DNA of 64,000 nt from Rhodobacter maris. GTDB lineage: Bacteria; Pseudomonadota; Alphaproteobacteria; Rhodobacterales; Rhodobacteraceae. Shown here piece after piece: positions 4,693 to 57,155 of the stretch. A program made the position numbers and the translations under genes. The notes beneath the pieces were generated by a model. It did no database searches and was not told where the DNA came from. It saw only the letters and a program-made list of their open reading frames with translations. Numbering within the stretch: position 1 is the stretch's first letter; each line of letters begins with the position of its first letter. The DNA is taken from the NCBI RefSeq assembly GCF_900217815.1, contig NZ_OBMT01000001.1:1-64000 (forward strand), written 5' to 3'.

Positions 4693-5886
4693 TCACCCGC
4701 CCTCGGCGGGCGCACCGAACACCGCAATCAAAAGCCCGAGAACGGCCAGCGCCGCAAACCCGGCGCGCCGTGCGCCCCGGCTCTCCAGCGCGGCCAGCAC
4801 CGATTGCGCAGCGTAATAGGCGGCAAAGGCGCGCGAGGCATAGGCGATGATGGTGAAGAGATCGGCGGTCCAGGTGAGCGCGGTCCCGGCGGCAACGAGG
4901 GCGAGATAGGCGGGCCGCGCCGGCAGGCGGCCGCGGCTGAGTTCTGCCGTGAGCCCCCCGGCTCCCGAGGTATCGGCCACGGCGGCGGAGAGCTGCGCGG
5001 CCAGCGCCGCCACCACCAGCATGCCCGGAAGCACCGGCGAGACCACCCCCATCATGTCGATGATCGCCGTCTCGCTCAGCGCATGGCTGCCCGGCGCGAA
5101 CACATAGGCCAGAAGCCCGATATAGGCGAGATAAATCGCGCTCGAGAGCCCCTGCGCGCGTTTCATCGCTGCGATGCGGGTCGGCGCATCGTAGCTTGCG
5201 CCCAGATAGCGCGCGGTCTCGAAGCCCTGCACGGTGACGATGAGACCAAAGCCCAGCGTGAGCGCCTGCCAGGGCGCGAGGCTCGGGGCGGCGACCACCA
5301 GCGCCCCTGCCGCGGCGCGGTCGGCGAAATAGCCCGCAAGGCCGAGGATCAGCCCGGCGATGATCGCAAGCTTGAGCGCGACAGAGGCATATTCGAGCCG
5401 TTCCAGCGCCTTGAAGCCCCCCGAAAACCCTGCGAGGCCCACACCGAGCAGCATCGCGGTGGTGACGATGCGGCCGGCAAACGCCCCGTGCCATGGCGTG
5501 AGCGCCACGGCGAAGGCGCCGAACAGGTTGAGGTAATAAGCCACCGAGATCACATAGGCGAAGGCGAGCACCGCCTGTGCCAGCGCCTCGATGCGGCGGC
5601 GCTCAGGGCGCGCGGGTCGGTCTTCCGCGGCGATATTGACCCGCACGGCCGCCCCGAATGCCCAGGCGACAAGACAAAGCAGCGCCATGGCGAGAGGTGC
5701 ATAGCCACCGTATTCGCTTTGCAGGATCGGGCCGAGCACCAGAAAACCCGAGCCGATGATCGAGGCGAGCGGCGTGATCATCGCGCGCCAGCGCGGCCGG
5801 CGGCGCAGGCCTGGCCAGAACATCGCCCCGAAGATCACGATGGCAAGAAGGAAGATGGCACTGTCGAGGAGCATCCCGGGGTCCAT
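4693..5886 (-). CDS. APC-superfamily-like integral membrane protein
   Basis: A 397-residue, very hydrophobic protein with roughly eleven predicted membrane segments and short loops. The opening IGSGFLVLGPILQSEYGGYAP and the later GFETARYLG resemble the helix-break and substrate regions of amino acid-polyamine-organocation transporters, but the match is weak and the protein is shorter than typical members (about 450-500 residues). It sits alone between the L,D-transpeptidase and mrcA, on the same strand, with gaps of about 75 bases. I would call it a probable transporter with unknown substrate. Confidence 0.6.
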   Translation of the reverse strand: MDPGMLLDSAIFLLAIVIFGAMFWPGLRRRPRWRAMITPLASIIGSGFLVLGPILQSEYGGYAPLAMALLCLVAWAFGAAVRVNIAAEDRPARPERRRIEALAQAVLAFAYVISVAYYLNLFGAFAVALTPWHGAFAGRIVTTAMLLGVGLAGFSGGFKALERLEYASVALKLAIIAGLILGLAGYFADRAAAGALVVAAPSLAPWQALTLGFGLIVTVQGFETARYLGASYDAPTRIAAMKRAQGLSSAIYLAYIGLLAYVFAPGSHALSETAIIDMMGVVSPVLPGMLVVAALAAQLSAAVADTSGAGGLTAELSRGRLPARPAYLALVAAGTALTWTADLFTIIAYASRAFAAYYAAQSVLAALESRGARRAGFAALAVLGLLIAVFGAPAEGG

Positions 5887-5963
5887 GCACGAATTGCGGA
5901 AACTCTAGCAGGACGCGCCCCGCGACAAAAGCCGAAGCAGCCGAAGTCGCCCCGGCGCGCCGC

Positions 5964-8519
5964 TCAGTACAAACCGCCTGCCGAGAGCGTGCCGAAATCG
6001 GCCTTTTTCGGGATCACCCGCGTCTGCCCGGTCGAGGTGGTGACAGTGGTGTTGTTGTCGCTCTCCCCCTGCGCGAAGAGCGGCAGATCCGCGCCCATCG
6101 CAAAACCGCCGTCGACGATCATGCCGAAACCGCGCATTTCCTGATCTTCGCGCATATATTCGGCCTGCACAAAATCCCCGCGCACGCCATCGGGGAGGAT
6201 CTCGCCGGTAAAGCGGTTGTAATTTTGCCAGTAACCGCCCGGGGGCACCTTGAACTTGCTGCCGCCGTAATCCTTCACGGCCTCCTGCATGAAGGCATTG
6301 AAAACCGGAACGCAGAGCGTGCCACCATAAGCGCCGGGGCCAAGCCCGCGCGGCTGGTCATACCCCATGTAGCACGAGGCGACGATGTTCGAGGTGAAGC
6401 CGGTGAACCACACATCCTTCGCGTCGTTCGTGGTCCCGGTCTTGCCCGCGACAGGCACCGGCAGGTTGACGCCGGTCCCGGTGCCACGCTGCACCGCACC
6501 CTGCATCAGCGACACCATCTGATAGGCGGTGATGGCGTTGATCACCTGCTCGCTGTCGGTGCGGATGCGCGGCCCGAGCCCTGCGGGCAGACCAGGGTCA
6601 GCACAATCGAGGCAGGCCCCCTGATCGTGGCGATAGATCGTGCGGCCCCAGCGGTCCTGCACCCGGTCAACCAGCGTCGGCTCGACGCGCTGCCCGCCAT
6701 TGGCAAGGATCGCATAGGCCGAGATCAGCCTGTACATCGTGGTTTCCTGCGCGCCCAGCGCGTTGGCCAGATAGGGGCCAAGATCATCATAGACGCCAAA
6801 ACGGCGCGCGTAGCCCGCCACCGTCTCCATGCCGATCTCCTGCGCGATCCGCACCGTCATCAGGTTGCGCGACTGCTCAAGCCCGGTGCGCAAGGGCGTC
6901 GGCCCGTAATATTTGTTCGAAGAGTTCTTCGGCCGCCAGAGGCCTTGCGGCGTGTTCACCTCGATCGGCGCGTCGACAACGATCGTCTCGGGCGAGAAGC
7001 CGGAATCGAGCGCCGCCGCATAGACGATCGGCTTCATGTTGGAGCCGGGCTGGCGCATCGCCTGGGTGGTGCGGTTGAACACCGAAGACTGGTAGGAAAA
7101 GCCGCCCTGCATCGCGAGCACCCGGCCGGTGTGCACGTCCATCGCCATGAAGGCACCCTCGACCTGCGGCACCTGCCGCAGCGACCAGCGCACGAAGCTG
7201 CCGTCGCTGTCTTTGGTGATCGCACGCACGAGCACGACATCGCCCACATCCACGAGGTCGGAGGCGCGTTTGGCGCGCGGCCCGAGCTTGCCATCCTTGT
7301 CGCGCTTGCGCGCCCAGGTGACATCCTCGGCCGGGATCCAGTGGCCGTCTGCGTCCTCGTCCACCCCCTCGATGCCGATCCGCGCCGAAGGGCCGGAGAT
7401 TTCCAGCACCACCGCCGGATGCCAGCCCTCAATGTCGCGCGGCGCCTGATCGGTGGGAACAGCGGCCAGCGCGGCGCGCCACGATGCCTCGTCCTTGAGC
7501 TGATCGGCGGGGATTGTCGCCTTGGTGCCGCGCCAGATGCCTTGGCTGCGGTCATATTTCTCAAGCGCATCCTGGAGCGCCTTCGCGGCCTGCGCCTGAA
7601 GTTTGGGGTCGACAGTTGCGCGGATCGTCAGACCGCCGCCGAAGAATTCCTCCTGCCCGAAGCTTTTCGAGAGCTGGCGGCGGATCTCGTCGGTGAAATA
7701 GTCGCGCGGCGGCAACGCCTCGCGGAACGGCGGATAATCGCCGCGCTGCACGGTCTTGAGCTCTTTCGCCTGCTCGGCCTCGAGTGTCGCCTGATCGATG
7801 TGACCATCCTCGAACATCCGCCGCAGCACATAATTGCGGCGCAGCCGTGCCTCGTCGTAGTTGCGCACCGGATGCAGCTCGGCCGGTTTTTTCGGCAACG
7901 CCGCCAGATAGGCCGCCTCGCCAATCGTCAGGGCGCTCAGCGGCTTGTTGAAATAGGTCTGCGCAGCCGCCGCAACGCCATAGGAATTCTGGCCGAGGAA
8001 GATCTCGTTGAGATAAAGCTCGAGGATGCGATCCTTGGACAGTGCCTCCTCGACCCGCGCCGCCAGGATCAGCTCCTTGATCTTGCGTTCGGCCGAGCGC
8101 GAACCGTCGAGCAGGAAGTTCTTCATCACCTGCTGGGTGATGGTGGAGGCGCCGCGCACATCCTTGCCGCCCGACTTGATCGCGGCAAAGGCCGCCGCCA
8201 GAATGCCGCGCGCGTCATAGCCCTTGTGAATATAGAAGTTCTGGTCCTCCGCCGAGACGAAGGCCTGTTTCACCACATCGGGAATATCGGCGATCGGCAC
8301 GAAGATCCGCCGTTCCTCGGCGAATTCGTCGATCAGGCGGCCCTCGCCGGAATAGATCCGGCTGATCGTCTTCGGCGTATATTGCGCGAGTTGCTCGTGG
8401 CTGGGCAGGTTGCGCCCATACATCCAGAAGATCGCCCCGACCGTCAGCGCGGCAAAGAAGATCGCGGTGACAACCCAGGAGAACAGGCCCCCGAGCGTGG
8501 AGAGGACGAAGCGGATCAA
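5964..8519 (-). CDS. mrcA: Penicillin-binding protein 1A (bifunctional peptidoglycan synthase)
   Basis: An 851-residue class A PBP polymerising glycan strands and cross-linking peptides in the periplasm. A membrane anchor (about 12-33) is followed by the glycosyltransferase domain with EDQNFYIHKG near residue 90 and GASTITQQ near 125. The transpeptidase domain has the nucleophile motif SNMK (in PGSNMKP, about residue 493), SRN and KTGTT near 691. An OB-like insertion typical of PBP1A lies between. I choose a TTG start at 8519 because GGGAG lies seven bases upstream and the protein then begins MIRFVLSTL; the longer open frame starts in poor sequence. Confidence 0.93.
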   Translation of the reverse strand: MIRFVLSTLGGLFSWVVTAIFFAALTVGAIFWMYGRNLPSHEQLAQYTPKTISRIYSGEGRLIDEFAEERRIFVPIADIPDVVKQAFVSAEDQNFYIHKGYDARGILAAAFAAIKSGGKDVRGASTITQQVMKNFLLDGSRSAERKIKELILAARVEEALSKDRILELYLNEIFLGQNSYGVAAAAQTYFNKPLSALTIGEAAYLAALPKKPAELHPVRNYDEARLRRNYVLRRMFEDGHIDQATLEAEQAKELKTVQRGDYPPFREALPPRDYFTDEIRRQLSKSFGQEEFFGGGLTIRATVDPKLQAQAAKALQDALEKYDRSQGIWRGTKATIPADQLKDEASWRAALAAVPTDQAPRDIEGWHPAVVLEISGPSARIGIEGVDEDADGHWIPAEDVTWARKRDKDGKLGPRAKRASDLVDVGDVVLVRAITKDSDGSFVRWSLRQVPQVEGAFMAMDVHTGRVLAMQGGFSYQSSVFNRTTQAMRQPGSNMKPIVYAAALDSGFSPETIVVDAPIEVNTPQGLWRPKNSSNKYYGPTPLRTGLEQSRNLMTVRIAQEIGMETVAGYARRFGVYDDLGPYLANALGAQETTMYRLISAYAILANGGQRVEPTLVDRVQDRWGRTIYRHDQGACLDCADPGLPAGLGPRIRTDSEQVINAITAYQMVSLMQGAVQRGTGTGVNLPVPVAGKTGTTNDAKDVWFTGFTSNIVASCYMGYDQPRGLGPGAYGGTLCVPVFNAFMQEAVKDYGGSKFKVPPGGYWQNYNRFTGEILPDGVRGDFVQAEYMREDQEMRGFGMIVDGGFAMGADLPLFAQGESDNNTTVTTSTGQTRVIPKKADFGTLSAGGLY

Positions 8520-10852: not shown

Positions 10853-11623
10853 GTGGAAGAAAAGACGGAAGGCGCGGTCGTCATCGAAGGACGCGCGGCC
10901 CCGGGGCCGTTCGTTTTCGTGTGCGAACATGCCGTGAATGCTTTCCCGGCGCGCTGGGGCGCGCTCGGGCTCGACGCCGCAACACGCGAAAGCCATGCCG
11001 CCTGGGATCCGGGCGCGCTCGGCCTTGCAAGAGCGCTCGCGGCCCGCCTGCAGTCTCCGCTGGTGCGCGCCACCCATTCTCGGCTGATCTACGATCTGAA
11101 CCGCCCGCCGCACTCCAAAGGTGCGATGCCTGCGCGCTCGGAGATCTATGAGATCCCGGGCAACAGGGCGGTGACGCCCGAAGAGCGGCTCGCCCGTACC
11201 GAGGCGCTTTACATTCCCTTCCATGCGGAATTGCGCGCTTTGCTCGCCCAGAAGCTCGCGCGCGGAGAGCGGCCCCTCCTCGTCACCGTGCATTCCTTTA
11301 CTCCGGTCTGGCACGGGCAGCCACGCGCGGTCGAATGCGGCATCATCCACGATGCCGATCCGAGCCTTGCCGAAGCCGTACTCGCCGAGGCCTGCGGGCA
11401 GACCGGCCTCGATTCCCGGCTCAACGAGCCCTATAGTGCCGCTGACGAAGTCACCCATACGCTGGCCTTGCAGGCGACGCCGCTCGGTCTGAAGAACGTG
11501 ATGCTGGAGTTGCGCAATGATCTGATTGCCGATGCGCCCGCTCAAGAGGCGATGGCGGACCGGCTGAGCGCCGTGCTGCGTGCCGCAGCGAGTGCGCTCG
11601 CGCAGCGCGGGGAGGTTACCTGA
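10853..11623 (+). CDS. N-formylglutamate amidohydrolase family protein
   Basis: A 256-residue metallohydrolase of the HutG-type FGase family. Motifs are CEHAVNAFP (metal-binding Glu-His) near residue 23, HSRLIYDLNRP, and TVHSFTPVW near residue 145. The GTG start at 10853 follows GGGGAG; the ATG at 10775 would lie inside the promoter region. Its stop overlaps the DctQ ATG, so it is the first gene of the operon. In histidine breakdown this family releases formate from N-formylglutamate, but no hut genes are present, and the setting suggests it may hydrolyse a gamma-glutamyl amide instead. That specificity is inference. Confidence 0.85.
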   Translation: MEEKTEGAVVIEGRAAPGPFVFVCEHAVNAFPARWGALGLDAATRESHAAWDPGALGLARALAARLQSPLVRATHSRLIYDLNRPPHSKGAMPARSEIYEIPGNRAVTPEERLARTEALYIPFHAELRALLAQKLARGERPLLVTVHSFTPVWHGQPRAVECGIIHDADPSLAEAVLAEACGQTGLDSRLNEPYSAADEVTHTLALQATPLGLKNVMLELRNDLIADAPAQEAMADRLSAVLRAAASALAQRGEVT

Positions 11624-47267: not shown

Positions 47268-47602
47268 GACTGTCTCCTTTGTCCACAGGTCAGCGCCGCC
47301 CAACCGCGGCGCATCAACATCTTGCACCCAGCTTTTCGAACTGTCAATATTTCTTTTATAATCAAATACTTGATCGTTTTTCCTCAGTTCCCACCCACAA
47401 CGGTTTCCGTCAGGATACCGGCCGAGAGCGACTTGCGGTCGCAGCCGCCCCCCGGTATCGCGCTTTACCCGAGCCGCCTTGTCCGATAAATTTAATCAAG
47501 AAATGCGTCGGCGGCAGGTCTGCCGGCGCACAGGCCCCAGCTCGACGCAAGGTCCCCTGTATCGCCATCCGACAGACAGGCAGACCGACTGGGGGAAGCA
47601 TC
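47268..47602. other. Divergent promoter region of hemP and the four-Cys gene
   Basis: This 335-base gap contains the AT-richest stretch nearby (about 47345-47385) with the palindrome ATCAA-ATAC-TTGAT at 47361-47374, a possible operator, plus GGGGGAAGC just before hemP. The frame of hemP is open across much of it, but that peptide looks non-coding. No RNA gene recognised. Confidence 0.45.
47361..47374. promoter_or_regulatory. Candidate operator palindrome upstream of hemP
   Basis: ATCAA-ATAC-TTGAT is a perfect 5-base inverted repeat in an AT-rich stretch between divergent genes. It is the outward version of the FNR-type TTGAT-N4-ATCAA, so it is not a standard FNR box. The regulator is unknown. 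Confidence 0.3.
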
Positions 47603-47836
47603 ATGCGCGACGAAGACGGATATTCCCGGGCACCGCTCGGCATCACACTGCGACCGGCTGCAGTGGCCGCGCCGCCCCCCGAGGCGGACGAGATCGGCGC
47701 CGCGCGCTGCCCCGAAGTGCCACGCCACGATGCCCGCGCACTCACCTGCAGCGCGGGCCTCGCCCATATCGTTCTCGACGGTGTCGCCTACACTTTGCGC
47801 ATCACCCGCAACGGCAAGCTGATCTTGACCAAATGA
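47603..47836 (+). CDS. hemP: Hemin uptake protein HemP
   Basis: A 77-residue protein whose last 25 residues (IVLDGVAYTLRITRNGKLILTK) are the HemP hallmark; the first 50 residues are a proline-rich extension. ATG 47603 has GGGGGAAGC upstream. HemP/HmuP family members occur at the front of haem-uptake loci and in some rhizobia and Burkholderia act as activators of the haem receptor gene. The haem receptor and ABC importer are not in this window; hutW and hutX follow 700 bases on. Confidence 0.85.
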   Translation: MRDEDGYSRAPLGITLRPAAVAAPPPEADEIGAARCPEVPRHDARALTCSAGLAHIVLDGVAYTLRITRNGKLILTK

Positions 47837-47936: not shown

Positions 47937-48374
47937 ATGAAGGATCTCGACCTTTCCGCATCTCTGGCCCTTTCGGCAGGCCATCGCATGCCCTGGCAAT
48001 CGGCGCTGCTGCGCATGTTGCGGCTGATCATCGACAGTTACCGCGCCCCCGACCGCGACGGCTGGTCCCGGTCGCTCCGGCTCGCGCAGGTGCATTGGGG
48101 GGAAGACCGGGGCGCGCTGGTCTTCTCGGATCTCGCACGAGTGCTTGAGGAAATGCGCAAGGCGCGCCACTCGCCGTTTGGCTTCGGTGCGGCGCAGGGT
48201 GAGGCCGCAACTCATGGACCGACGCGGCATGAGGCGCTGTTTTTGCAAACGATCCGGTTGCAATATGCGGGCCTTGGCGCACAGGCCGACGCCGTGGCGC
48301 ATCTGCTGTGCGAATGCAACGAGACCGCCGCCTATCTTGCTGCGGTGCGGAAGCTGGCGCATCGGTTGCGCTGA
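47937..48374 (+). CDS. Uncharacterised protein in the haem region
   Basis: A 145-residue, mostly helical soluble protein that I do not recognise. It starts MKDLDLSASLALSAGHRMPWQSALLRMLR, has a central FSDLARVLEEMRKARHSPFGFG and a CECNETAAYLAAVRKLAHRL end. It contains several His and a Cys pair (CEC) but no known haem motif. It lies 100 bases after hemP and 160 before hutW on the same strand, so a link with haem handling is suggested by position only. Confidence 0.65.
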   Translation: MKDLDLSASLALSAGHRMPWQSALLRMLRLIIDSYRAPDRDGWSRSLRLAQVHWGEDRGALVFSDLARVLEEMRKARHSPFGFGAAQGEAATHGPTRHEALFLQTIRLQYAGLGAQADAVAHLLCECNETAAYLAAVRKLAHRLR

Positions 48375-48533: not shown

Positions 48534-49946
48534 ATGACCGCGGCGGCCGCGCGTCATGCGGAGCCCGCATGCGAGACGCCCTCACCGGCGCGTTTCTTTG
48601 CCACCCTCGGCACCGATCCGCTCGCCTGCGCCTTTCCGCGCAAGAGTGGCGCGCATCCGGGCACCCCGACGCAGCCCCTGCCCGCCGATCAGCGCGATGC
48701 GGAATGGCGACGATTGCTCGCCACCCCGCGCAACCGCCGCACCGTCGCTTATGTGCATCTGCCATTTTGTGAAAATCACTGTCTGTTCTGTGGCTTTTAC
48801 CAGAATCCCTGGCGACCCGAAGCGGGGGGCCCCTATGTCGATGCGCTGATCGCCCAGCTTGCCGCCTTCGCCCGGCACCCGGCCTGCGAGGGGCCGCCGC
48901 TGCAGGCGGTCTATCTCGGCGGCGGCACCCCCACCGCACTCTCCGGCCCCGATCTCGCGCGGCTCGTGCGGGCGATCCGCCAGCATCTGCCGCTCGCCTC
49001 CGATTGCGAGATCACGCTTGAGGGGCGCATCCATTCGTTCGGCCTCGAAAAGGCGCGGGCGGCTTTCGACGCCGGGGTCACGCGGATCTCGCTTGGGGTG
49101 CAAAGCTTTGATGCCACGATCCGGCGCCCGCTCGGCCGCAAGGCGAGCCGCGCCGAAATCCTCGCCGCGCTTGCAGCGCTCGTCGCGCTCGATCAGGGCG
49201 CGGTGATCGTCGATCTGATCTACGGCCTGCCCGGGCAATGCCCGGAGGATGTCGCGGCCGATGTGCGGCTCTGCGCGGAGCTTGGCCTTGACGGGCTGGA
49301 TCTTTATGCATTGAACCTGATCCCGGGAACGCCGCTCCTCACCGCTCTCGAAAAGGGCAAGAAGCGGGTGGCCGGCCCTGAGGCGCTGGGGCATTTCTTC
49401 GCCGCGGGCGAGGCGGCGGCCGAGGAGATGGGCTGGGCACCGATTTCCACCTCGCATTGGCAAGGCAGTCTGCGCGAGCGTTCGGTCTACAATCTCGCGG
49501 TCAAGACCGGCGCCGATTGCCTCGCTTTCGGAGCGGGCGCAGGGGGGGCGCTTGGCGGGCTCTCGTTCCGGCTCGGCACCGATCTCAGGCAGTATAATGC
49601 GCAGGCTGGCAGCTGCGGTGCGGCGCTTCTGGCAGGCATGATGCGGCAGGCCCGGTCCGCCCGCGTCGCCGATGCGATCAAGGCCGGGATGGAGCGCGGG
49701 CGGCTCGATCTTGCCCGCGTCGAGGCCGCCTTCGCTGCGCTCATCGCCCGTCCCGCCCTTCCGCTCGCCGAGCATCTCGCGCCGCTCCTCGCGCAATGGC
49801 GCGAGGCCGGGCTCTGGCAACCGCAACACCGCTTTCATCACCTGACCCGGGCCGGGCGGTTCTGGCAGGTGCCCATGACCACCCGCCTGCTCGGCTGGAT
49901 GGCCGAACATCCCGATCTTACCCCCGAACCGGAGCCTGCAAAATGA
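48534..49946 (+). CDS. hutW: HutW/ChuW-type radical-SAM haem-degrading protein
   Basis: A 470-residue radical-SAM protein of the haem-utilisation branch of the HemN-like family. The cluster motif CENHCLFCGFY (Cys near 79, 83, 86) is followed by YLGGGTPTAL near residue 125 and the HemN-like RISLGVQSFD. The CxFCGFY form is typical of HutW/ChuW rather than HemN. E. coli O157 ChuW opens haem without oxygen, giving anaerobilin and free iron. The stop overlaps hutX by four bases. The ATG at 48534 has weak ribosome-binding sequence (AGGCCCCG). Confidence 0.88.
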   Translation: MTAAAARHAEPACETPSPARFFATLGTDPLACAFPRKSGAHPGTPTQPLPADQRDAEWRRLLATPRNRRTVAYVHLPFCENHCLFCGFYQNPWRPEAGGPYVDALIAQLAAFARHPACEGPPLQAVYLGGGTPTALSGPDLARLVRAIRQHLPLASDCEITLEGRIHSFGLEKARAAFDAGVTRISLGVQSFDATIRRPLGRKASRAEILAALAALVALDQGAVIVDLIYGLPGQCPEDVAADVRLCAELGLDGLDLYALNLIPGTPLLTALEKGKKRVAGPEALGHFFAAGEAAAEEMGWAPISTSHWQGSLRERSVYNLAVKTGADCLAFGAGAGGALGGLSFRLGTDLRQYNAQAGSCGAALLAGMMRQARSARVADAIKAGMERGRLDLARVEAAFAALIARPALPLAEHLAPLLAQWREAGLWQPQHRFHHLTRAGRFWQVPMTTRLLGWMAEHPDLTPEPEPAK

Positions 49947-50440
49947 CCCTTACGATTTCCGAAGCCCTCGCCGCCACCCCCCATGCCGCTCTCGAAGACA
50001 TCGCGCGCGCGGCGCAGAGCACTCCGCTTGCCGTGCTCGAGGCGCTGCCTGCGGGCGAGGTGACCGCGCTGCCCGGCCAGTTCATGGTCGAGGTTCTGGA
50101 TGAGATGGCGGGCTGGGGCGAGATCACGCTGATCGTCAACACCGGCCCGGTGATCCTTGAGGCAAAGGCGCCGCTGCAGGGCGGCACGGTGGCGCAGGGG
50201 ATGTACAACTTCAAGGGCAAGCCGATCGGTGGCCATCTGAACATCGCGGCCTGCGCGCGCATTGCCTTCGTGCGACGCAAGCTCTTCGGCACGGAAACCC
50301 GCTCGGTGCAGTTCTACGACAGCGAAGGCGGATGCCTCTTCAAGGTCTACCTCGGCCGTGATGCGGCACGGCAGATGATCCCCGCCCAGATCGCTGCTTT
50401 CGACGCGCTGGAACGCCGCCTTCTGGAGACAGCCGCGTGA
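49943..50440 (+). CDS. hutX: Haem carrier protein HutX
   Basis: A 165-residue cytosolic haem-binding protein (HutX/ChuX family). The family body is seen in VTALPGQFMVEVLDEMAGWGEITLIVNTGPVILEAKAPL and GGHLNIAACARIAFVRR, ending with FYDSEGGCLFKVYLGRD. It hands haem to the degrading enzyme. ATG 49943 overlaps the hutW stop and its own stop overlaps the GTG of the SDR gene, so hutW-hutX-SDR is a coupled operon. Confidence 0.9.
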   Translation: MTLTISEALAATPHAALEDIARAAQSTPLAVLEALPAGEVTALPGQFMVEVLDEMAGWGEITLIVNTGPVILEAKAPLQGGTVAQGMYNFKGKPIGGHLNIAACARIAFVRRKLFGTETRSVQFYDSEGGCLFKVYLGRDAARQMIPAQIAAFDALERRLLETAA

Positions 50441-51375
50441 GCGCGGATCTTGAAGGGCGTCACCTGCTGCTCTTCGGCGCGGGATATTGCGCCCGGGCGG
50501 TGGCCGCTCAGGCACTGGCGCGCGGCGCGCGGGTCTCTGCCACCGCCCGCACCGACACCGCGGCCGCGAGGCTCGCGGCGCGGGGCATCCGTCCCTGGCG
50601 TCTCGCGGACGGCCATTGGTTGCCCCGGATGGCGCTGGCGGGGGTGACCGATCTTCTGGTCTCGACGCCGCCCGCCAGCGGCGGTTGCCCCGCCTTCGCC
50701 TCGGTCTCCGATGCACTTGCCGCCGGCGCCTCGCTCGGAACGCTGCGCTGGATCGGCTATTATTCCTCAAGTGCCGTTTACGGCGATTGCAGCGGCGCCT
50801 GGATCGACGAGCGCCAGCCGCCCGCCCCCGCAAGCCCCGATGCGCAAGGGCGGCTCGTGGCGGAACGGCACTGGCGCGGGCTCGCGTTGCGCCACCGGCT
50901 GACGCTCGATATCTTGCGCATCGCGGGGATCTATGGCCCGGAGGGGCGCAACATTCTGGCGCAGTTGCGCAGCGGCCGGGCGCGCGCGATCATCAAGCCC
51001 GGTCAGGTTTTCAACCGTATCCATCGCGACGACATTGCCGCCGCCACGCTTGCGGCGCTGAGGCATCCGCGCCCCGAGCGGCTGATCCATCTCGCCGATG
51101 GCGCGCCCTGCAGCTCTGCCGAGCTGACCCGGGGCGTGGCGGCGCTGATGGGCTTGCCGGCTCCGCCCGAACACCCTTTCGATGCCGCGGCCCTGCCCGC
51201 GGGCATGGCCGCATTCTGGGCCGAGAACCGGCGCTTGCGGGTGGATGCGATGCTGGCGCTGCCGGGATTTGCGCTGCGATTTCCCGACTGGCGCGCGGGA
51301 TATGCAGATCTGCTGCAAGATCCGGAGGCCGAGCCGCCCCCCGTCAGCGCCGCGACCGCCGCGCCTGCGCGCTGA
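50437..51375 (+). CDS. SDR-family NAD(P)-binding protein coupled to hutWX
   Basis: A 312-residue protein of the epimerase-like (YeeZ-type) short-chain dehydrogenase group. The dinucleotide loop is FGAGYCARA near residue 14, followed by an Arg (TARTD) that suggests NADP. SSSAVYGDC near residue 112 holds the usual Tyr, but the Lys four places later is absent. The rest resembles the C-terminal substrate domain of NDP-sugar epimerases. GTG 50437 overlaps the hutX stop. By position it takes the place of chuY, the anaerobilin reductase in chuW-chuX-chuY, though ChuY is shorter. Role in reducing a haem-derived tetrapyrrole is inference. Confidence 0.75.
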   Translation: MSADLEGRHLLLFGAGYCARAVAAQALARGARVSATARTDTAAARLAARGIRPWRLADGHWLPRMALAGVTDLLVSTPPASGGCPAFASVSDALAAGASLGTLRWIGYYSSSAVYGDCSGAWIDERQPPAPASPDAQGRLVAERHWRGLALRHRLTLDILRIAGIYGPEGRNILAQLRSGRARAIIKPGQVFNRIHRDDIAAATLAALRHPRPERLIHLADGAPCSSAELTRGVAALMGLPAPPEHPFDAAALPAGMAAFWAENRRLRVDAMLALPGFALRFPDWRAGYADLLQDPEAEPPPVSAATAAPAR

Positions 51376-54088: not shown

Positions 54089-54880
54089 TCAGCAGGCGAT
54101 CAGACCGCGGGCACGAAACACCGCGCGCGCCGCCTCGGCCTCATCCGGGCTTGGCGTGGGCGTGTCGGAAAGCTGATAGGCGGTGCCGACACCGGCCCAT
54201 TTCGCGCGGCCAAGCTGATGGAACGGCAGTACCTCGACCAGTTCCACGCTTGGCCCGAGGCTGGCAACGTAATCGGCCATCCGCGCCACCTCGTCGGCGC
54301 CATCGGTCCAGCCGGGCACGAGCACGTAGCGGATGCGCATTTTCTTGCCGAGCCGCACCATCCGCGCGGCGCAATCGAGCGTGGGTTTCAGCGCCTGCGC
54401 GGTGAGCGCCTGATGCCGTTCCGGGTCGATATGCTTGATGTCGAGCATCACAAGGTCGATCGGGTCGAACCAGTCATCGGCCACCCGCGCATGCAGATGG
54501 CCCTGCGTGTCGAGCGCCACATGGAGCCCAAGCCGGGCCTTGATCTCACGCGCGGTGGCATTGACAAACTCGGCCTGCATCATCGGCTCGCCGCCCGAAA
54601 AGGTCACCCCGCCCGCGAATTTCAGAAAGCTCGCAAGCGGCGCCACCTCGGCGAGCAGATCCTCAACCGAGACCTCACGCCCGTTGTGCAGCTTCCAGGT
54701 ATCGGGGTTGTGGCAATAAAGGCAGCGGAACTGGCACCCGGAGAGAAAGAACACGAAGCGCATGCCCGGCCCATCCACCGCCGCGCCCGATTCCAGCGAA
54801 TGCAGGAAGCCGTGGCAGGCGGCGGCATGGGGCGCACAAAGCGGCGGCTCGATCCTGGCCCGGGGCAGATCGAAGGTCAT
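54089..54880 (-). CDS. pflA: Pyruvate formate-lyase activating enzyme
   Basis: A 263-residue radical-SAM enzyme that makes the glycyl radical on PflB. The [4Fe-4S] motif is GCQFRCLYCHNPDTW (CxxxCxxC near residues 50-57), with GGVTFSGGEPMMQ near residue 93 as SAM-binding GGE. ATG 54880 lies eight bases after the pflB stop, so pflB-pflA is one operon as in enterobacteria. It needs reduced flavodoxin and acts only without oxygen. Confidence 0.95.
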   Translation of the reverse strand: MTFDLPRARIEPPLCAPHAAACHGFLHSLESGAAVDGPGMRFVFFLSGCQFRCLYCHNPDTWKLHNGREVSVEDLLAEVAPLASFLKFAGGVTFSGGEPMMQAEFVNATAREIKARLGLHVALDTQGHLHARVADDWFDPIDLVMLDIKHIDPERHQALTAQALKPTLDCAARMVRLGKKMRIRYVLVPGWTDGADEVARMADYVASLGPSVELVEVLPFHQLGRAKWAGVGTAYQLSDTPTPSPDEAEAARAVFRARGLIAC

Positions 54881-54887
54881 CGCGCCC

Positions 54888-57155
54888 TCACATGCTGGCG
54901 TGGAAGGTGCGCGAGATCACATCAAGCTGCTGGTCGCGGGTGAGCTTGACGAAGTTAACCGCATAGCCCGAGACCCGCACCGTCAGCTGCGGATAGGCCT
55001 CGGGGTGGGCCATCGCATCCTCAAGCGTTTCGCGGCGCAGCATGTTGACGTTCACATGGAAGCCTCCCGCATGGCAGAAGCCGTCCAGGCAATTGGCGAG
55101 GTTCGTCACCTGCTCGGCCTCGGTATGGCCCATCGAGGCGGGCGTCGCGCTCGCGGTCCAGGAGATGCCATCAAGCGCCGCCTCATAGGGGAGCTTGGCC
55201 ACAGAGGCGCCCGCCGCGACAAAGCCCTTCTTGTCGCGCCCGTTCATTGGGTTGGCGCCCGGAGCAAAAGGCGCGCCGGCGCGCCGGCCATCCGGCGTGT
55301 TGCCGGTTTTCTTGCCATAGACCACGTTCGAGGTGATCGTCAGGATCGACTGCGTCGGCGTGGCCCCCCGGTAGAAATGCGGCTGGCGCGCCACTTTCTT
55401 CATGAAGGTCTCGGTCAGCCAGACGGCGATTTCGTCCACCCGGTCATCGTTGTTGCCAAAGGCCGGATAGTCGCCCTCGATCTCGTAATCGGTGGCGAGC
55501 CCCGCCGCGTTGCGGATCACTTTTACCTTGGCGTGCTTGATCGCCGAGAGGCTGTCGGCCACGATCGAGAGCCCGGCGATGCCACAGGCCATGGTGCGCA
55601 GGATGTCGCGGTCATGCAGCGCCATCTCGATCCGCTCATAGGCGTATTTGTCGTGCATGTAGTGGATGGCGTTGAGCGCCTTCACATAGATCTTGGCGAG
55701 CCAGTCCATCGAAAGGTCGAACTTCGCCATCACCTCGTCATAGTCGAGCACCTCCGCCGTGATCGGCGTGAGCCCCTTCGCCACCAGCGCGCCGGATTTT
55801 TCGTCCACACCGCCGTTGATCGCGTAAAGGAGCGCTTTCGCAAGGTTCGCCCGCGCGCCAAAGAACTGCATCTGTTTACCGATCCGCATGGCGGAGACGC
55901 AGCAGGCGATGCCGTAATCGTCGCCCCATTTCGGGCGCATCAGGTCATCGTTTTCATACTGGATCGCGGACGTGTCCTTGGAGACCTTGGCGCAGAAATC
56001 CTTGAAGCCCCGCGGCAGGCCAACCGACCAAAGCACGGTCAGGTTCGGCTCGGGCGCTGGGCCGAGGTTGTAAAGCGTTTGCAGCACGCGGAACGAGGTT
56101 TTGGACACGAGCGTGCGCCCGTCTTCGCCCATGCCGCCGATGGCCTCGGTGACCCAGGTCGGGTCGCCCGAGAAGAGCGCGTCATAATCGGGCGTGCGCA
56201 AAAAGCGGATGATGCGCAGCTTGATCACGAGATCATCGATCAGCTCTTGCGCCTGCGCCTCGGTGAGCCGGCCTGCGGCAAGGTCGCGTTCAAAGTAGAT
56301 GTCGAGGAAGGTCGAGACCCGCCCCAAAGACATCGCCGCGCCGTTTTGTTCCTTCACCGCAGCGAGATAGCCAAAATAGGTGGCCTGCACCGCCTCGCGC
56401 GCCGTCACCGCGGGGGCCGAGAGATCGACACCGTATTTCAGCGCCATTTCACGCAGTTCTTCGAGCGCGCGGAACTGTTCGGAAAGCTCCTCGCGCAGCC
56501 GCAACGTGGCCTCGTCAAACACCGCATCGTCAAGCGCGTGGAACTCGGCCTGTTTTGCGGCTTTGAGCCGGTCGATCCCGTAAAGGGCAACGCGGCGATA
56601 ATCGCCAATGATCCGGCCCCGGCCATAGGCGTCGGGCAGCCCGGTGATCACGCCCGATTTGCGCGCGGCGAGAATGTCGGGCGAATAGGTGTCGAACACG
56701 CCCTGATTGTGGCTTTTACGATATTTGGTCCAGATTTCGGCCACAGTCGCATCGGAGTCAAAGCCATAGGCCTTGAGCCCGGCCTCGACCATGCGCAGCC
56801 CGCCATTGGGCATGATCGCGCGTTTGAGCGGCGCATCGGTTTGCAGGCCCACGATCAACTCGTTCGCGCGGTCGATATAGCCCGCGTCATGCGCGGTGAT
56901 GCTGGAGGGCCGATCCGCCGAAACATCGAGCACGCCCTTTTCGCGCTCAAGCTTCAGAAGCGCGGCAATGTCAGCCCAGAGCTTCGTGGTGCGCGCGGTC
57001 GGGCCCGCAAGGAACGCTGCATCGCCTTCATAAGGCGTGTAATTTTCCTGAATGAAACCGCGCAGGTCGATCATCTCGCGCCACTTGCCCTCGGAAAAAC
57101 CTTCCCACGGATCGATCAGGGGGCGGTTGATCGAGGTTTCGGTGAAGGCATTCAT
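54888..57155 (-). CDS. pflB: Formate C-acetyltransferase (pyruvate formate-lyase)
   Basis: A 755-residue glycyl-radical enzyme splitting pyruvate with CoA to acetyl-CoA and formate. The catalytic Cys pair is in GIACCVSAM near residue 418 and the radical glycine is Gly730 in [21 protein letters not shown], close to the C-terminus as expected. Length matches the E. coli enzyme (760). GGAAAGGAC precedes the ATG. No focA formate channel is next to it. It indicates fermentative growth in the dark or mixed photoheterotrophic redox balancing. Confidence 0.97.

Follow-up and report, generated by a model that had tools for sequence, protein, structure and literature searches.

What takes the place of the anaerobilin reductase ChuY in a haem operon whose third gene belongs to another protein family? 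The question is raised by a three-gene operon at positions 48,534 to 51,375 of a 64,000-nucleotide stretch of Rhodobacter maris DNA (contig NZ_OBMT01000001.1, positions 1 to 64,000), hereafter referred to as the window. An earlier note, made from the sequence alone, had read the genes as hutW, hutX and an epimerase-type SDR standing where E. coli O157 has chuY, and had proposed anaerobic haem ring opening with a new kind of reductase. The operon and the gene upstream of it are as follows.

47588..47836, + strand: hemP, encoding a haemin uptake protein, ahead of hutW; PF10636, 52 bits against a cut-off of 25
48534..49946, + strand: hutW, 470 aa, radical-SAM enzyme for anaerobic haem opening; TIGR04107, PF04055
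49943..50440, + strand: hutX, cytosolic haem carrier, 165 aa; TIGR04108, PF06228
50437..51375, + strand: haem-linked 3ius-type SDR, 312 aa, proposed linear-tetrapyrrole reductase; phmmer match to 3ius_A, Foldseek, conserved operon

Layout of the operon

HutW scored 512 bits against the curated equivalog model TIGR04107 (cut-off 400). Its translation contains CENHCLFCGFY, in which CENHCLFC is the CxxxCxxC radical-SAM motif and which agrees with the CxxxCxFCGFY haem-use motif noticed earlier. HutX, already taken to be the second gene, scored 177 bits against the curated model TIGR04108 (cut-off 110). With both proteins over curated cut-offs, the reading of the locus as an anaerobic haem-opening operon is supported. 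Coordinates, order, strand and the four-base overlaps were confirmed on the sequence: the hutW TGA at 49944-49946 overlaps the hutX ATG at 49943 (ATGA), and the hutX stop at 50440 overlaps the SDR GTG at 50437 (GTGA). The same -4 overlap was found at the hutX-SDR joint in 9 of the 15 loci measured, the window included. Since the gene order also recurs in distant genomes, it is more than chance.

Between hemP and hutW lies a 145-aa ORF (47937-48374, +), for which the profile search returned no Pfam or NCBIfam match. A weak match to it (28%, 1e-6) was found beside haem locus L044, and the ORF may encode a small, as yet unnamed protein associated with haem.

Family and active site of the SDR

The third protein is, as had been noted, an epimerase-type SDR of 312 residues. 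PF01370 (Epimerase) was its sole Pfam match over the cut-off (26.6 bits against 20.9), with PF04321 under the cut-off, and no NCBIfam model matched in the profile search. The nearest solved structure was 3ius (chain A, phmmer 8e-55), a Silicibacter pomeroyi protein released as functionally unknown, which has the same family and fold at 38-39% identity. The label "YeeZ-like" may apply to the SDR as well. A predicted model (mean pLDDT 91.6) gave 3ius as the top Foldseek hits (TM 0.92 on target), followed by GalE-type extended SDRs.

ChuY structures 5guy and 5ffq were absent from the phmmer hits, the profile hits and the 50 Foldseek rows listed. Their chains have 207-215 aa, so the window SDR is indeed the longer protein. 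Comparison of the SDR profile with a ChuY-type profile gave a match along the Rossmann part only (probability 94.9, E 4e-8); judged from these profiles, the two are distant Rossmann relatives. The third gene of a Marinobacter locus (L062), on the other hand, matched ChuY 5guy at 1e-35 and PF13460. Orthology of the window SDR to ChuY was rejected, because the protein matches PF01370 rather than PF13460 and ChuY is missing from its matches. The phrase "new kind of reductase" thus holds in part: the protein is not ChuY and forms a branch of its own (see below), but it is not a wholly new kind of protein, since a family match at E 1e-25 or better occurs in 283 of 295 Rhodobacteraceae genomes, a set in which almost every genome stands for a different genus.

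The SDR had been described as having the Tyr but no Lys of the usual YxxxK. In fact both are missing, and this is family-wide. In a 94-row alignment the GalE YxxxK place was set by counting from a GalE stretch. The place of the GalE Tyr (column 136) is occupied by Ala, Asn, Gly, Ser or Thr and by Tyr in none of the 94 rows; one column further (137), Tyr occurs in 1 of the 74 non-haem rows. The place of the Lys (column 140) holds mostly Leu, Val, Ile or Trp, with Lys in 2/74 non-haem rows. The pair is likewise missing from an alignment of 36 relatives, in which S110, Y115, G116, D117, R139 and E143 are invariant; in the larger alignment R139 is present in 93/94 rows and E143 in all 94. The Tyr noticed earlier is probably Y115 of the invariant VYG motif. 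Catalysis of the GalE type was rejected for want of the catalytic YxxxK.

One position separates a group of these proteins from the rest. Position 84 is Cys in 12/12 Rhodobacteraceae-type haem-linked SDRs and Asp or Glu in each of the 82 other rows, among them eight haem-linked SDRs of other lineages, which have Asp; in the phmmer alignment 3ius also has Asp in place of the Cys84 of the window SDR. In the predicted model the site lies just ahead of the helix after strand 4, and, going by the fold, Cys84 would be on the cofactor- and substrate-binding side of SDRs. Cys118 was dropped as a marker of haem-linked copies because 27/74 non-haem rows also have it.

Occurrence and phylogeny of the haem-linked SDRs

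The distribution of HutW is patchy, with a protein over the cut-off in 2/295 genomes of the family, 4/18 of the genus and 2/385 of the class. From a HutW scan of genome contigs the best 80 of 209 relatives were kept as loci. Thirteen of these have a 3ius-type SDR, 14 a ChuY-type gene (a label that rests on L062 against 5guy, 1e-35) and none has both; the SDR and ChuY counts are lower bounds, because some of the loci end at or near hutW (e.g. L040 and L041). This mutual exclusion is confounded by lineage, and the product of the counts predicts only about two double loci in 80. Twelve of the 13 SDR-bearing loci have hutW-hutX-SDR on one strand; in the remaining one, L050, the SDR faces away on the opposite strand, ~2.5 kb from hutW. 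Among the carriers are four Rhodovulum species, Thioalkalivibrio sp. XN8, Thiobaca trueperi and MAGs of Thiorhodococcus, Chromatiaceae and Hyphomicrobiales.

Twenty-nine of the 80 loci come from named hutW genomes, several of them MAGs or drafts. Searches of these genomes found a haem-linked SDR in 14, a strong ChuY match in four, an ambiguous case in one (L050) and neither reductase in 10, including R. capsulatus, Fuscovulum and Phaeovulum. In the ChuY search set of 33, where some genomes are counted twice (e.g. G296 = G691), a match of 1e-30 or better was obtained in four, the same strong ones, and weak matches only (5e-16 to 5e-11) in 10 others; the genome of the window had none at 1e-8. 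In 12 of the 14 SDR carriers a further SDR copy scores 100 bits or more, and G714 has a partial weak one.

Twenty genomes with a haem-linked SDR, L050 being left out, were tallied: 15 have contiguous hutW-hutX-SDR, two hutW-SDR, two hutX-SDR without an adjacent hutW, and one neither. HutW is encoded in 19/20, within 4 kb of the SDR in 17. R. visakhapatnamense has hutX-SDR with hutW elsewhere in the genome; R. strictum has its SDR close to a contig end (~0.5 kb), with hemP after it and hutW-hutX elsewhere; and G085 (locus L152, a 94% complete genome) has hutX-SDR and no HutW over the cut-off. Outside the Rhodobacteraceae-type clade this count is partly circular, because hutX adjacency helped to define a copy as haem-linked.

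The circularity does not extend to tests on fresh genomes of two groups. In the family of the Thiorhodococcus MAG (77 genomes, judged by similarity only), four SDR matches had at least 70% identity and all others at most 40%; the sole new carrier, G766, has hutW-hutX-SDR. Among relatives of Rhodovulum euryhalinum 9/41 matched the SDR at 1e-70. All three new matches adjoin hutW, one as hutW-hutX-SDR and two as hutW-SDR, and two of the six found previously (G701 and G719) do not. In L259 and L260 (G1085 and G1093) the SDR comes immediately after hutW, and no hutX was detected across the 16-17 kb that were read. In the order of the window (390 genomes) a search at 1e-60 returned four matches, namely the window and three that agree in coordinates and scores with L043, L163 and L048, and so yielded no new carrier and also no haem-free one.

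The neighbours identified at haem-linked copies include hutX, hutW, hemP, TonB receptor genes and genes of the hmuT type. In 9/12 Rhodobacteraceae-type loci hemP comes after the SDR; in L052 and L055 the gene after it carries a Peripla_BP_2 domain (hmuT type), with a look-alike in L057. No sugar genes, which the earlier note had named as evidence against its reading, were recognised at the haem-linked copies read, where neighbour annotation is partial. The gene had also been expected to keep to genomes with hutW. That expectation failed in part, for the wider family, which is mostly without hutW, and for G085. The placing of the SDR in the position of ChuY is supported, as is its recurrence elsewhere beside hutW, hutX or both.

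Matches to the SDR in Rhodobacteraceae are nearly always one per genome, typically at ~40% identity, and in the family to which the Thiorhodococcus MAG belongs 69/77 genomes have one. The genome of the window has two 3ius-type SDRs, the second, non-haem copy being at C56:775645-776475. No hutW or hutX match was found in the stretch read around six non-haem copies whose flanks were longer (L122 and L153-L157; the L153 contig is 8.6 kb), and no haem genes were recognised by eye in four non-haem contexts (L122, L212, L211 and L154). G195 matches the SDR at 7e-64, yet falls into the non-haem clade of the tree; no hutX is present on its short contig.

A quick tree of 93 rows placed the 12 Rhodobacteraceae-type haem-linked SDRs in one clade (SH-aLRT 100). 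The other eight haem-linked SDRs need two changes, and that of L050 fell among haem-linked rows with low support. A careful tree of 64 rows recovered the Rhodobacteraceae-type clade (nine rows, 98/95) and a separate 40-row non-haem clade (100/98). A single clade of 16 haem-linked rows was neither rejected by the AU test (p 0.53) nor demonstrated; L184, which has a very long branch, was excluded from this test and from the 93-row tree, and L210 is another long branch. One origin of all haem-linked SDRs is thus not taken as proven, as the trees and the AU test allow either. In the 93-row tree the Chromatiaceae-type haem-linked SDRs lie closer to SDRs of alphaproteobacteria than to the remaining copies from their own family, a placement which suggests that the operon may have reached Chromatiaceae-type lineages by transfer.

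Proposed role of the SDR and alternative readings

Several known systems resemble the locus. In chuW-chuX-chuY of E. coli O157 and Hyphomicrobium denitrificans (Hden_0599-0601, discussed in PMC12423496) a radical-SAM opener, a haem carrier and an NAD(P)-binding third gene stand in the same order, which is also seen in a Hyphomicrobium MAG (L068); the third gene there is of the ChuY type (PF13460), whereas that of the window is a 3ius-type extended SDR (PF01370). Vibrio cholerae hutWXZ also begins with hutW and hutX. Its third gene, hutZ, differs from the SDR in encoding a haem-degrading protein (PMC6775658), and PMC10035031 describes the system as being without a ChuY homologue. The hmuTRUVWF genes of Fusobacterium nucleatum combine a radical-SAM opener with a non-ChuY reductase, as proposed for the window; unlike the SDR, HmuF is flavodoxin-type and also carries haem (PMC10404700). 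According to the same paper ChuY, which resembles biliverdin IX-beta reductase, reduces anaerobilin with NADPH, and HmuF performs this reduction in Fusobacterium. In V. cholerae, HutW itself reportedly reduces its product (PMC10035031). Different proteins, ChuY, HmuF and HutW itself, are already in print for the reduction step (PMC10404700 and PMC10035031).

HutW and HutX are identified, their coupling to the SDR is conserved, and the SDR forms a separate branch. On this basis we consider the chances even that hutW-hutX-SDR is a coupled anaerobic haem-degradation operon in which the SDR reduces the linear tetrapyrrole product with NAD(P)H. By family membership, HutX would pass haem to HutW, which would open the ring by radical-SAM chemistry with release of iron. 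The SDR, a specialised branch of the 3ius-type family and not a ChuY orthologue, would use its Rossmann fold to bind NAD(P)H and would reduce the tetrapyrrole, the step that ChuY carries out in E. coli and that HmuF performs in Fusobacterium. As the SDR has no Tyr-Lys pair, hydride would reach the tetrapyrrole without that acid-base pair. The broader claim falls slightly short of even chances: that 3ius-type SDRs, rather than the ChuY/BVR-B or flavodoxin lineages, have given rise to a new class of linear-tetrapyrrole reductases by which Rhodobacter, Rhodovulum and purple sulfur bacteria complete the anaerobic degradation of haem, with the change of Asp84 to Cys marking the Rhodobacteraceae-type branch. 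If true, different protein families have supplied the reduction step after ring opening on several occasions, a family with a solved but unexplained structure gains a functional lead, and anaerobic haem use extends from enteric and oral bacteria, where it was worked out, to environmental bacteria, among which there are harmless strains for laboratory work.

The same data set bounds to this role. The 10 of 29 hutW genomes with neither reductase imply that the reduction step can go otherwise or be omitted. G085 implies that the substrate of the SDR need not be a product of HutW, and strict dependence of the SDR on HutW was rejected on that ground. Nor is a place in the operon proof of function, because Edwardsiella is reported to use haem without the third gene of its hutWX(Z) operon, which is co-transcribed with the first two and shares 50% identity with ChuY: according to PMC6775658 its product shows no obvious flavin reductase activity or hemin binding, and its deletion left growth on haem unaffected.

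These bounds give room to other readings. It is unlikely, in our judgement, that the SDR is a general bilin reductase which acts on linear tetrapyrroles from any ring opener, HutW or ABM/IsdG-like, and so tracks haem uptake instead of HutW. The locus of G085 favours this view, with an hmuT-type gene, a permease-like gene, a TonB receptor, hutX, the SDR and an ABM gene in that order, as do the ABM gene directly 3' of the SDR in L058 and the ABM-like gene beside an hmu-type cluster in the genome of the window (L250). However, the near-constant presence of hutW in haem-linked SDR genomes, mostly within 4 kb, argues for a tie to HutW; ABM adjacency was seen at two loci within the subset checked, and ABM as haem oxygenase is a domain-level guess. 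We regard as more doubtful still a non-catalytic or regulatory role, in which the SDR would be an NAD(P)H-binding chaperone or sensor for haem or its product. Absence of the Tyr-Lys pair fits such a role. However, ChuY is not known to have the pair either. ChuY is reported to be active, with a structure resembling biliverdin IX-beta reductase (PMC10404700), and the glycine motif of the SDR together with invariant S110, Y115, R139 and E143 looks like a retained active site.

Least probable of all appears to be that the SDR is a passenger of the haem locus, keeping the role of the housekeeping paralogue or acting on a sugar nucleotide. The prevalence of the family in Rhodobacteraceae, the GalE-like fold and the Edwardsiella precedent (PMC6775658) all fit this. 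It is harder to reconcile with a separate haem-linked clade bearing Cys84, with the missing GalE Tyr-Lys pair, with haem neighbours across distant lineages and with the second SDR copy in most carriers.

Among the matches listed in searches of open-access literature, judged by titles and abstract starts, none was recognised as a description of this SDR with hutW or hutX. These searches gave nothing on YeeZ, 3ius or purple bacteria with hutW, and for Rhodobacter with hutW only matches unrelated by title and abstract start; the terms sought were absent from the text of a Roseobacter haem paper (PMC5225302).

Other haem-related and anaerobic genes

The genome of the window contains two HemS-domain genes (C56:240445 and C15:131627) and the hmu-type cluster with the ABM-like gene (L250; the cluster was read by eye, the ABM match computed). 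From these genes it appears that the genome has haem handling beyond the hutW-hutX-SDR operon. The haem oxygenase family PF01126 was matched in 0/3 genomes by profile search. The second HemS-domain gene, G000:C15:131627-132400, is separate from the HemS-domain gene within the hmu-type cluster.

ABM-domain genes (PF03992) lie directly 3' of haem-linked SDRs at 7209-7520 (+) of L152 and 10923-11243 (+) of L058, and a 45% identical ABM gene is found beside the hmu-type cluster at 5808-6131 (-) of L250. Going by their domain, these could possibly be IsdG-like haem oxygenases.

In the window itself, two pyruvate formate-lyase-type ORFs (54089-57155, -), judged by eye from translation to be PFL activase-like (54089-54880) and pyruvate formate-lyase-like (54888-57155), would place anaerobic genes near the haem operon.
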